This document shows positions 35,924-39,604 of a stretch of 64,000 bases of DNA, piece after piece; positions within the stretch are counted from its first letter, which is position 1, and each line of letters opens with the position of its first letter. The notes under the pieces are model-generated. The model ran no database searches, had not been told where the DNA came from, and saw nothing but the letters and a program-made list of their open reading frames with translations. The position numbers and the translations under genes are program-made. Origin of the DNA: Aliirhizobium wenxiniae (GTDB lineage Bacteria > Pseudomonadota > Alphaproteobacteria > Rhizobiales > Rhizobiaceae); assembly GCF_014201355.1 (NCBI RefSeq), contig NZ_JACHEG010000005.1:248001-312000 (forward strand), in the 5' to 3' direction.

Positions 35924-37831
35924 ATGGCAGGTCGCGGAGACAATTCCAAGGGCAAGCCCGCCGGTCCGGTCGATACCGAGCCGATGCGGCGGGCTATAAC
36001 CGGCTGCGTGCGGTCGATCGCCGGAAAGCAGGAGGTGGAGGTTTCCTTCGCCAACGAGCGTCCGGGACTGGCCGGCGAGCGTATTCGCCTGCCAGAAATT
36101 TCCAAGCGGCCGACGGCGCACGAGCTTGCGGTGACGCGTGGTCTTGGCGATTCCATGGCCCTTCGGATCGCTTGCCACGACACCAATGTCCACGCGACGC
36201 TTTCGCCTCAAGGCTCGGATGCACGCGCGATCTTCGATGCCGTTGAGCAGGCGCGCGTCGAATCGATCGGCGCGCTACGCATGGCCGGTGTCGCCGCTAA
36301 CCTGAATTCGATGCAGGAAGAGAAATACGCCAAGGCGAATTTTTCAGGCATCGAGCGTCAGGAAGAAGCGCCGATCGGCGAGGCGGTCGCCATGCTGGTG
36401 CGCGAAAAGCTGACCGGCCAGAAACCGCCGGAAAGCGCCGGCAAGGTGCTCGACCTCTGGCGTCCCTTCATCGAGCAGAACGCTTCTGGCGATCTCGACA
36501 ATCTGAAAAATGTGATCGAGGACCAGCAGGCTTTCGCCAAGCTCGTCCGCCACATGTTGTCCTCGATGCAGATGGCTGAGGATCTGGACGGCGACGAGAA
36601 CGAGCCGGAAGAGATCGAGAACCAGTCGGAAGAGGATCAGCCGAGCAGCGGCGAGACCGAAAACGAAGAGGTCGAGGAAGAAGCCGGATCCGATGCCGCG
36701 CCCGCCGAGCAGAGCGAAGCGGCCGACGAGGAGATGGACGAAGGCGAAATGGACGGCGCGGAAATGTCGGACGACGAAATGTCCGACGAGGCCGACGACC
36801 ATTCCGAAACGCCCGGCGAAACCCGCCGGCCGAACAGCCCGTTCGACGATTTCAACGAGAAGGTGGATTATCACATCTTCACGCAGGAATTCGACGAGGA
36901 GATCACAGCGGAAGAGCTTTGCGACGAGGCTGAACTCGACCGCTTGCGCGCTTTCCTCGACAAGCAGCTTGCTCACCTGCAGGGTGCCGTCGGTCGTCTG
37001 GCGAACCGCCTGCAGCGCCGCCTGATGGCACAGCAGAACCGGTCCTGGGATTTCGATCTTGAAGAAGGTTATCTCGATCCGGCGCGTCTGGTGCGCCTGA
37101 TCATCGATCCGATGCAGCCGCTTTCCTTCAAACGGGAGCGCGACACGCAGTTCCGCGATACGGTCGTCACGCTCGTTATCGACAACTCCGGTTCGATGCG
37201 TGGCCGGCCGATCACGGTTGCAGCCTCCTGCGCCGATATTCTGGCGCGCACGCTGGAGCGTTGCGGCGTCAAGGTCGAGATCCTCGGTTTCACCACCAAG
37301 GCGTGGAAGGGCGGACAGAGCCGCGAGAACTGGCTTGCCAGTGGCAAGCCCGCGTCGCCGGGTCGCCTCAACGATCTGCGTCATATCATCTACAAGTCGG
37401 CCGATGCGCCGTGGCGTCGTTCGCGCCGCAATCTCGGCCTGATGATGCGCGAAGGCCTGCTCAAGGAAAACATCGACGGCGAGGCGCTGATGTGGGCGCA
37501 TAACCGGCTGATCAACCGGCCGGAACAGCGCAAGATCCTGATGATGATTTCGGATGGTGCACCGGTTGACGACAGCACGCTTTCGGTCAATCCGGGCAAT
37601 TATCTGGAACGGCACCTGCGCGCCGTCATCGAGCAGGTCGAGACCAAGTCTCCGGTAGAGCTGCTGGCGATCGGTATCGGTCATGACGTGACGCGTTACT
37701 ACCGCAATGCCGTGACCATCGTTGATGCCGACGAGCTTGCCGGCGCGATGACCGAGCAGCTTGCCGAACTGTTTGCCGACAAGTCGGCGGGTGGTGCTGC
37801 ACGCGGCCGCCGCATGCGCCGGGCCGGCTGA
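35924..37831 (+). CDS. cobT: Cobaltochelatase subunit CobT
   Basis: 635 residues. The N-terminal part resembles other CobT proteins, the middle (about 220-305) is a strongly acidic linker of Glu/Asp, and the C-terminal von Willebrand A domain has the MIDAS motif DNSGSMRG followed by conserved Thr and Asp. It forms the two-tier ring with CobS that powers CobN. Length matches the family. The gene is 19 bp after cobS. The next reading frame starts 4 bp after its stop. Confidence 0.96.
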
Positions 37832-37835
37832 CCCA

Positions 37836-38825
37836 TTGTCGAAGCTCTCGCACGTTCTTCTGGCCGGCGTCGTCCTTGCGATGATGCCGGCCATATCATT
37901 TGCGCAGGATGCGGTGCGCGTGACGGCAAAGCCGATCTCGCAATTCAAGCCGAGATCCGATCAGGTAAAGTTCGGACCGCTTGAGTTTATCGGCGGAATC
38001 GAGTTCAGCTCGAACGATAGCCGTGTCCAGTCGCTGTCCAGCATACGCTTCCGGCCGGATGGCGCGCATTTCGTTTCCGTCCTCGATACGGGCGAGTGGC
38101 TGACCGGGCAGATCTTGCGGGATACATCGGGTAGGTTGTCCGGGCTTTCCGACGTCGCCGTCAGCTCCATGCTGATGCGCGATGGCCGTGCGGGTTCCAA
38201 ATCCGCATCGGACGCCGAAGGACTGGCACTGCGCGACGGCGAGGCTTTTGTCAGTTTCGAACAGCGGCACAGGATTGAAGCCTATCCTGATCCCGGCTTC
38301 GAGACATCAAAGCCATTACGCAATGTGAATTTCCTCATCCCGCTGCACGAACTTCGGCGGAATGCCGGCATTGAAACGCTGGTTGCGTCGCCCGCTGCAG
38401 GCCCACTTCAAGGTGGGCTTGTGGCGATTGCGGAGAGCAGCCGGGATGCTGCGGGCAATCTGCTTGCGGCGATCATCGATGGACCACTCAAGGGGGAATT
38501 TACGGTGGTGCGCCATGATCCCTATGATGCGACGGACGGTGCTTTCCTGCCGGACGGCGATCTTCTGCTTCTGGAGCGCCGTTTCAGCTTTGTCGGCGGA
38601 ATGGGCATGAAGATTAGACGCATCAAGAGTCATGATATCCGTCCGGGTGCGGTGGTCGATGGTGAGGTGCTGATCGATGTCGGGGCAGATCATGCGATCG
38701 ACAACATGGAAGGCATTGATGTTGTGGCGGGGCCGGATGGCAGTCCGCATCTCATTGTCGTCTCGGATGACAACGGACTTTTTCTCCAGCGCAATCTGAT
38801 GCTGGAGTTCAAGCTCAGCCAATAA
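37836..38825 (+). CDS. Exported phytase-like esterase domain protein
   Basis: 329 residues from TTG 37836. A signal peptide (LSHVLLAGVVLAMMPAISFA) is followed by a beta-propeller-like domain of the 'esterase-like activity of phytase' family: FIGGIEF, GLSDVAVS, DAEGLALRDGEAFVSFEQ and NMEGIDVVAG are typical. The start has no clear ribosome site; it lies 4 bp after the cobT stop, so coupling to cobT is likely. A GTG at 37794 inside cobT is an alternative. Substrate unknown; the link to cobST is positional only. Confidence 0.8.
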   Translation: MSKLSHVLLAGVVLAMMPAISFAQDAVRVTAKPISQFKPRSDQVKFGPLEFIGGIEFSSNDSRVQSLSSIRFRPDGAHFVSVLDTGEWLTGQILRDTSGRLSGLSDVAVSSMLMRDGRAGSKSASDAEGLALRDGEAFVSFEQRHRIEAYPDPGFETSKPLRNVNFLIPLHELRRNAGIETLVASPAAGPLQGGLVAIAESSRDAAGNLLAAIIDGPLKGEFTVVRHDPYDATDGAFLPDGDLLLLERRFSFVGGMGMKIRRIKSHDIRPGAVVDGEVLIDVGADHAIDNMEGIDVVAGPDGSPHLIVVSDDNGLFLQRNLMLEFKLSQ

Positions 38826-38853: not shown

Positions 38854-39495
38854 TCAGGCCGTCTTTGCCGCTGCCTGCGGCATTGGCTTCAGCACGTTCA
38901 TCAACGCGCCATAGGGCAGAAGCAGGACGACTCCGACCACGACCTTGACTACGAGGTCGCCGAGGCCCCAAGAGATCCAGCGCGGCGCTTCCGTGGACAT
39001 GACGCCGAGGATCGGGGCGGAAGCGGTGGCGAAATCGAAGTTGGGGCCGATGAAGGCAAAGACCGGGGCAAAGGCGATCGAGAAGAACAATACCGTATCG
39101 ATCACCGTGCCGATCATCGATGCAGCAAGCGGCGCCTTCCACCAGGTCTGGCGGCGCAGTTCGTTGAAGACCGAAATGTCGAGAAGCTGGCCGATCAGGA
39201 ATGCGGTGCCGGAGGCAATCGCGATGCGTGGTTCCGAGAGCCAAAAGGACAGGGCAACGCCGACGACAAAGCCGACAAACACGATGCGGCGGGCAATGGC
39301 CGGGCCGAACTGGCGATTGGCGAGGTCGGTCACGAGGAAGGCGACGGGATAGGTGAAGGCGCCCCAGGTGAGGATGTCGCCGAGAGCGATGCCCCACAGA
39401 GTTCCGGTCAGGTGGAACTGGACGAGGATATTGGAGGCCACGACGATGGCTGCCATCGCGAGGGAGTAGATAAGGGTATAGCGTGCGACTTGCAT
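38854..39495 (-). CDS. yhhQ: Queuosine precursor transporter, VUT/YhhQ family
   Basis: 213 residues with six membrane helices. Family marks: SNILVQFHLTG, TYPVAFLVTDLANRQFGP, GQLLDISVFNELRR and the end helices. YhhQ imports preQ0/preQ1 for queuosine-tRNA synthesis. ATG 39495 has agga 7 nt upstream, but that site lies inside a hairpin (see leader). The gene stands only about 40 nt beyond the strong terminator of rpmB and no own promoter is evident, so expression may depend on read-through plus control at the leader. Confidence 0.92.
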   Translation of the reverse strand: MQVARYTLIYSLAMAAIVVASNILVQFHLTGTLWGIALGDILTWGAFTYPVAFLVTDLANRQFGPAIARRIVFVGFVVGVALSFWLSEPRIAIASGTAFLIGQLLDISVFNELRRQTWWKAPLAASMIGTVIDTVLFFSIAFAPVFAFIGPNFDFATASAPILGVMSTEAPRWISWGLGDLVVKVVVGVVLLLPYGALMNVLKPMPQAAAKTA

Positions 39496-39530
39496 TTTTT
39501 TATCCTGGGGTATGCCACCAGTTGCGGATA
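39489..39530 (-). promoter_or_regulatory. Candidate preQ1-I-like pseudoknot leader over the yhhQ start codon
   Basis: On the - strand: inner stem CTGG (39518-39521) / CCAG (39505-39508), loop TGGCATACC, outer TATC / GATA (39527-39530 with 39501-39504), then an A-rich strand and the ATG. The Shine-Dalgarno AGGA (39503-39506) is in the stem. Loop GCAT (39512-39515) is complementary to ATGC at the start codon (39492-39495), allowing an H-type pseudoknot. The core is 33 nt, with an ACCCCAG half-stem and A-rich tail as in class I preQ1 aptamers. The gene's substrate makes the match meaningful, but the fold is read by eye. Confidence 0.5.
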
Positions 39531-39535
39531 GGCCA

Positions 39536-39575
39536 AGAGAAAAGGCTTGCCCGGTATTATCCGGTCAAGCCTTTT
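39536..39575 (-). terminator. Strong terminator of rpmB
   Basis: Long stem: aaaaggcttg (39540-39549) pairs with caagcctttt (39566-39575), extended by ccgg pairs with a single mismatch, loop 6 nt. On the - strand it runs into ttttctctt. It separates rpmB from yhhQ. Confidence 0.85.
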
Positions 39576-39604
39576 CCAAAGCCGGTGAAGTGTTGAAGGC
39601 GCTA

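Follow-up and report, generated by a model that had tools for sequence, protein, structure and literature searches.

The start codon of yhhQ lies within a real, conserved and structured RNA element in the window (the whole 64,000-nucleotide stretch of DNA analysed here), and this element is very probably a translational preQ1 riboswitch, an H-type pseudoknot that would be either a homolog or a counterpart of the E. coli yhhQ riboswitch of class I, type III. We base this reading on the sequence of the element, its conservation, covariation in its pseudoknot helix P2, the match of its pocket bases to the E. coli aptamer, and its link to yhhQ. Type III riboswitches have been described as almost exclusively gammaproteobacterial (PMC10622847) and as occurring almost exclusively in Pseudomonadota (PMC11625349); if the reading holds, the subtype extends to an alphaproteobacterial family that includes Rhizobium, Sinorhizobium and Agrobacterium, and it suggests how most sampled Rhizobiaceae gate the import of a queuosine precursor.

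Anatomy and conservation of the yhhQ leader element

The element is read from the minus strand, where the RNA is laid out as CUGG-UGGCAUACC-CCAG-GAUAAAAAA-AUG-C. Its parts and its neighbors on that strand are as follows, with local numbers counted from the RNA 5' end.

39492..39521, minus strand: whole element, CUGGUGGCAUACCCCAGGAUAAAAAAAUGC, read directly, with the RNA 5' end at 39521 (local 1-30)
39518..39521, minus strand: P1 5' strand, CUGG (local 1-4), pairing with local 14-17
39517, minus strand: U5, corresponding to U6 in the numbering of the E. coli crystal structure; the same base in all 86 copies of 30 nt
39515..39516, minus strand: G6 and G7, the 'UG' loop form; G7 pairs with C30
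39512..39515, minus strand: P2 5' strand, GCAU (local 7-10), the anti-start-codon; C8, A9 and U10 invariant in 86 of 86
39509, minus strand: C13, the equivalent of the E. coli specificity base C14; invariant in 86 of 86
39505..39508, minus strand: P1 3' strand, CCAG (local 14-17)
39503..39506, minus strand: Shine-Dalgarno-like AGGA (local 16-19), half of it in P1, 7 nt 5' of the AUG
39496..39504, minus strand: L3 linker, GAUAAAAAA (local 18-26), an A-rich strand
local 26, minus strand: A26, the equivalent of E. coli A27, the reader of preQ1
39492..39495, minus strand: P2 3' strand, AUGC (local 27-30), comprising the yhhQ start codon and the first base of codon 2
38854..39495, minus strand: yhhQ, queuosine-precursor transporter, 213 aa; TIGR00697 at 98.8 bits (cut-off 50.95) and PF02592
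39898-39605, minus strand: rpmB, upstream of yhhQ on the same strand; TIGR00009

The components named in the original prediction (a CTGG/CCAG stem, a loop GCAT facing ATGC, an ACCCCAG half-stem and an A-rich strand) are all present in the minus-strand sequence, and the family matches of yhhQ bear out its identification there as a queuosine-precursor importer. The length of 33 nt first given is to be corrected to 30 nt. The structure had also been predicted to trap both the Shine-Dalgarno sequence and the AUG; this holds for the AUG, which lies wholly within P2 (the GCAU/AUGC pseudoknot), and falls short for AGGA, only half of which is in P1. AGGA is a putative Shine-Dalgarno sequence, and its AGG is invariant in the 86 copies of 30 nt, as are A27, U28 and G29. 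No ATG, GTG or TTG lies between the preceding in-frame stop and the AUG at 39495-39493. P1 and P2 are predicted from the comparison of copies to form at once.

A terminator-like hairpin occupies 39538-39577 in the gap between rpmB and yhhQ (AAGGCUUG...CAAGCCUU followed by a U-rich end), and is kept with changing letters in the same-genus leaders inspected. The best sub-threshold Rfam match at the locus, to the Rhizobiales sRNA family Atu_Ti4 (window 39577-39474, minus strand; 20.6 bits, cut-off 40), spans this gap and was rejected as chance because its structure corresponds to neither P1 nor P2. Downstream of yhhQ, a convergent gene (37761-38822, plus strand) encodes a phytase-like esterase domain (PF13449) and has no NCBIfam match.

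Taken loosely (a 4-bp stem, an 8-10 nt loop that holds CAT and ends in C, and a 7-12 nt linker), this geometry precedes 11 of the 2261 ATG triplets in the window, the yhhQ element included, so one sequence alone is unconvincing. The strict pattern TNNCATNNCCNNGN{2,6}AAAAATG has one site in the 6.43-Mb genome, at yhhQ. Our certainty that the element exists comes from comparison across genomes. The element heads yhhQ in all 36 same-genus genomes. In the wider GTDB family, 143 of 151 genomes yielded a YhhQ, and among leaders taken from 100 of these 143 (approximately one per genus) the element is present in 93. It is present in none of 11 yhhQ-bearing genomes from other families of the same order; these are 11 of 14 such genomes, the other three having weak protein matches.

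Further, named genomes scanned with a pattern in which both P1 strands were free gave at least 120 stretches, 115 of which open reading frames matching YhhQ by blastp. All 115 carry CUGG/CCAG, and the other five have neither a YhhQ match nor CUGG/CCAG. Genera among the 80 named matches listed include Rhizobium, Sinorhizobium, Agrobacterium, Shinella, Neorhizobium, Hoeflea and Martelella. Counts out of 206 given below combine the 93 family leaders, the 36 same-genus copies and 77 of the first 80 named loci, among which species may overlap.

Across the 86 of 93 family copies that are exactly 30 nt long, the commonest base at a position has a mean frequency of 0.941 within the element, compared with 0.374 over the 40 upstream bases and 0.467 over the 30 downstream bases; the linker reads GAUAAAAAA in 173 of 206 copies. 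The frequency of the loose geometry would suit a reading in which there is no RNA element at all, just a strongly conserved translation start (AGGAUAAAAAAAUG) overlain by a chance hairpin. We find this hardly credible, because conservation sets in abruptly with the first base of P1 and covers loop bases far upstream of AGGA, and because the loop covaries with codon 2, as read from ungapped copies.

A family model of the element, R1 (built from 27 sequences, the window's own included), matches the window at 39521-39492 with 47.3 bits. Across 297 genomes of the order, R1 gave strong matches (E 2.2e-8 or better) in 12, all in the window's family, and had no match in the family genome G149. Another 13 genomes, from other families, gave weak matches (0.0098-0.096); eight of these loci were inspected by eye and rejected, none being like an element-bearing yhhQ leader, and of the eight one (L325) shares only the tail CCCAGGAUAAAAAAAUGC and another (L329) only AAGGAUAAAAAAAUGC. 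A decayed element, with its P1 3' strand and A-run altered, stands before yhhQ at locus L267 of a 1.5-Mb genome (G169). Of the seven genomes that lack an intact element, four have sizes of 1.1-1.5 Mb.

Loop forms and covariation within P2

The loop occurs in three forms among the 93 family copies: UGGCAU in 37, UGCCAU in 5 and UUCCAU in 51 (hence UG in 42 and UU in 51). At the start of codon 2 (base 30), all 37 UGGCAU copies have C and all 5 UGCCAU copies have G; in the UU form this base is A in 21, C in 19, U in 11 and G in none. The outer pair of P2 covaries, G7:C30 being exchanged for C7:G30, and the UU form is without a 7:30 pair. The UG loop of the window is best read as a derived form with an extra P2 pair. 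The C at codon 2 is kept whether the codon specifies Gln, Leu, Arg, Pro or His, and the constraint is therefore on the RNA. Over all nine nucleotides, the loop forms include UGGCAUACC (the window), UGGCAUCAC, UUCCAUCAC and UGCCAUCAC, the last with G as base 30. The further loop letters are AC in 165 of 206 copies, CC in 28 and UC in 13, the window's copy combining UG with CC.

Eight changes of loop form fall on a maximum-likelihood tree built from 70 YhhQ proteins. UGCCAU arose five separate times, each time with G30, and well-supported branches force at least four of these origins. Independent pairs drawn on well-supported branches agree in 5 of 5 cases (sign test, p = 0.0625, a test that with five pairs cannot go below 0.05), and there are eight pairs when weak branches are counted. 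In the 51 UU copies, the lack of any G at base 30 gives p ~1.7e-4 against a G share of 0.157 in codons 3-8 if rows are assumed independent; it is only suggestive, because the rows are not independent and codon 3 itself has G in 1 of 51.

We had expected ordinary covariation in P1 at first, and this is ruled out: P1 is all but invariant, with CUGG/CCAG in 205 of 206 copies and CCGG/CCGG in one. The sole double change, from U2-A16 to C2-G16 (locus L266), is compensatory, and because P1 barely varies, its covariation rests on one genome. Over 27 distinct sequences, the proposed structure pairs 90.7% of cells, compared with 16-48% when it is slid along the alignment. Its covariation score is 0.038 against 0.022 in shuffles (as high in 4 of 500), and the paired cells, at 90.7%, compare with 88.8% in shuffles (as high in 25 of 500), so that covariation of the structure as a whole is only moderately above shuffles. 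The original prediction had named a lack of conservation or covariation in orthologous leaders as its refutation; the leaders are highly conserved and the outer P2 pair covaries, which supports the preQ1-I-type reading.

Relation to the E. coli type III preQ1-I riboswitch

The yhhQ leader of E. coli K-12 reads UUGGG-UUCCCUCAC-CCCAA-UGGUUAAUC-AAAAAGG and fits the 36-mer, with its linker, of the solved type III preQ1-I riboswitch (PMC10622847). In that structure P2 consists of U11-A28, C10-G29 and C9-G30, and preQ1 is read by the specificity base C14 together with U6, which contacts it, and A27, over the pair G5-C15 (PMC10622847). The UU form of the Rhizobiaceae, CUGG-UUCCAUCAC-CCAG...AAAAAAUG, differs from the E. 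coli loop UUCCCUCAC by one base, C to A. This loop change at C10 is matched in the tail by G29 to U, which converts the E. coli AAGG into the Rhizobiaceae AAUG. Judged from these letters, it looks like a single compensated pair moves P2 from the Shine-Dalgarno sequence to the AUG, a natural experiment in which one base pair shifts the signal that is captured.

The E. coli riboswitch and the UU form have in common the gene yhhQ, a 9-nt loop with the letters UUCC-UCAC, the specificity C, the U adjoining P1, the G-C atop P1, an A-run leading into the P2 tail, and the geometry of a small H-type pseudoknot. They differ in P1, which has 4 bp in the Rhizobiaceae and 5 in E. coli. The window's form differs further in having UG and not UU in the loop and a fourth P2 pair with codon 2; relative to type III, the window's copy has G for U at local 6, G for C at local 7 and C for A at local 12. 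The type III position at the ribosome-binding region of yhhQ (assigned with TIGR00697) is occupied in 93 of 100 Rhizobiaceae leaders and in the window, and the type III pocket (the specificity C 5' of the P1 3' strand, the U after P1 and the top G-C) is invariant in 86 of 86 copies. The type III AAGG is absent as the P2 3' strand from the 93 copies, which have the AAUG of the start codon with the compensating change in the loop.

The near-invariance of CUGG/CCAG is not what one expects of an aptamer stem and is more like a protein or small RNA site; it would fit a ligand-free translational operator, either a pseudoknot that tunes yhhQ or a binding site for such a partner. This we regard as very unlikely, since the equivalents of the preQ1 contacts (U5, C13, G4-C14 and A26) are the same in all 86 copies, unlike loop bases 11 and 12, and since E. 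coli yhhQ has a proven preQ1 switch with an almost identical loop.

We surveyed 398 genomes of the phylum with a pattern that accepted either letter, and 73 genomes matched. Thirty of the loci were checked. In ten of them, all from the window's family, yhhQ is preceded by UUCCAU...AAUG; in fifteen from outside the class it is preceded by UUCCCU...AAGG, and these are taken as gammaproteobacterial because their YhhQ is 58-92% identical to that of E. coli; the other five lack YhhQ. A model of the AAGG form, R2, was made from the E. coli element and 14 distinct sequences of these fifteen loci, and was run on 63 Rhizobiaceae sources, namely 62 of the 93 leaders (51 UU and 11 of the 42 UG) and the copy from the window's genome (L001). 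R2 finds 51 of 51 UU copies at the right place (11.0-17.5 bits, E 0.055-1.2). It finds 6 of 12 UG copies at 7.9-9.7 bits (E 2.3-5.3), the level of its one off-target match in 38.9 kb (8.3 bits, E 4.5), and L001 scores only 8.1 bits (E 5). In the reverse direction, R1 had no match to the E. coli element. Because of the match between the UU form and E. coli, the AAGG survey and the R2 results, we regard the element, at the level of sequence, as a start-codon-capturing relative of type III, from which the window's copy, with UG and ACC in its loop, stands further away.

The UG form may tentatively be viewed as a class I preQ1 riboswitch subtype with a structure of its own, although we put this at somewhat less than an even chance. 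In E. coli, U7, which corresponds to local 6, reportedly locks A27, the adenine that reads the ligand (PMC10622847). G6 goes with a fourth P2 pair into codon 2 in 42 of 42 copies, and the U6 form has that pair in 0 of 51 (its codon 3 is also poor in G), which suggests that the E. coli-type ceiling (the U7-A27 and C8-A28-U11 contacts) is rebuilt in the UG form, possibly with altered affinity or specificity. Because the regulated site is the initiation codon, a riboswitch of this subtype would constrain the second residue of the protein; this second, recurrent change would tie the switch to codon 2, with the coding sequence shaped by it.

In its nested fold of minimum energy, the window's 30-mer pairs the GG of the loop with CC, C13 included, at -7.1 kcal/mol; of the other loop forms, UUCCAUCAC and UGCCAUCAC only were folded. 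ACC occurs in the loop of 27 of 206 copies. In this predicted fold, the GG/CC hairpin may compete with the pocket, and it may be a resting state or a sign of a different way of working.

The loop had originally been compared with that of the T. tengcongensis aptamer and found short enough to suggest a variant class. The idea of a variant form is supported, and the apt reference is the type III preQ1-I riboswitch of E. coli yhhQ. The T. tengcongensis riboswitch, a type II class I member, shares the H-type pseudoknot and equivalent U, C and A pocket bases, but has a longer loop and a guanine above the ceiling, and its pseudoknot takes only the first two Shine-Dalgarno bases (PMC10622847). PreQ1-II (RF01054) and preQ1-III (RF02680) likewise control queuosine-precursor transporters (PMC11625349), with much larger folds than the Rhizobiaceae element.

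The preQ1 covariance models proposed as a check, RF00522 (gathering score 39 bits), RF01054 and RF02680, had no match in the window or in the leaders of 20 relatives. In 60 relatives, RF00522 gave nothing above its cut-off; 21 had matches at E up to 10, none of them at yhhQ. This silence of RF00522 is uninformative here, because a validated type III element is missed too: the E. coli K-12 yhhQ leader (L276 9050-9300), a proven type III riboswitch, was without an Rfam match even at E values up to 10. The E. coli type III element seems to lie outside what RF00522 covers.

We found no report of the Rhizobiaceae element in the literature searched, mostly at the level of titles and abstracts. McCown et al. 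2014 (Chem. Biol.) is reportedly the source of the type III model, and could already include some alphaproteobacterial members. Depending on the bacterium, yhhQ lies under various preQ1 riboswitch classes (PMC5372724); the text of that paper, figures aside, contains no word beginning with rhizobi, agrobacterium or brucella. Five RNA motifs of Agrobacterium and other alphaproteobacteria are named in the consulted part of PMC1273637, none of them at yhhQ.

Proposed mechanism, ligand and queuosine pathway

If the element works as its E. coli counterpart does, plentiful preQ1 would dock between P1 and P2, where C13 would pair with it and U5 and A26 would contact it, and the docked ligand would close P2 on the AUG (and, in the window's form, on the first base of codon 2). 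P1 would meanwhile hold half of the putative Shine-Dalgarno sequence, so that the ribosome would be blocked and production of the importer would fall. At low preQ1, P2 would open and yhhQ would be translated. This direction of control, the binding of preQ1 and the three-dimensional fold are predicted by analogy with E. coli, where type III favors preQ1 over preQ0 approximately 138-fold and represses a reporter 6.1-fold (PMC10622847). At 30 nt and with a 4-bp P1, the element would rank among the smallest natural aptamers, by extension from the claim made for E. coli (PMC10622847).

COG1738 proteins may carry preQ0, preQ1 or queuine (PMC5372724), and the UG form alters bases around the ceiling of the pocket, both of which leave room for a riboswitch of the same fold whose ligand is preQ0 or queuine. 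We consider this unlikely. All ten element-bearing genomes that were tested have Tgt and QueA; nine are relatives and the tenth is that of the window, which also has QueF and QueC. QueA acts on preQ1-tRNA. Four element-bearing genomes (G154, G136, G074 and G083) have YhhQ, Tgt and QueA and neither QueF nor QueC over cut-off; preQ0 would be useless to them for queuosine, and preQ1 is therefore the precursor that they would be expected to import. The E. coli preference for preQ1 likewise argues against preQ0. As for queuine, the genomes expected to use it, G065 and G149, lack the element. A translational switch responding to preQ1 is the reading that we retain.

Among seven element-lacking relatives, two (G065 and G149) are without QueA, QueF and QueC over cut-off, four have QueA without QueF or QueC over cut-off, and one (G151) has all three. 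QueF is over cut-off in 1 of the 7 element-lacking and 5 of the 9 element-bearing relatives; these numbers are too few for us to claim that loss of the element is tied to loss of preQ1 synthesis. QueF is present in each of three family genomes without YhhQ. G065 and G149, in which YhhQ and Tgt are present and the element is absent, are candidates for queuine salvage, and G154, G136, G074 and G083 are candidates for obligate import of preQ1.
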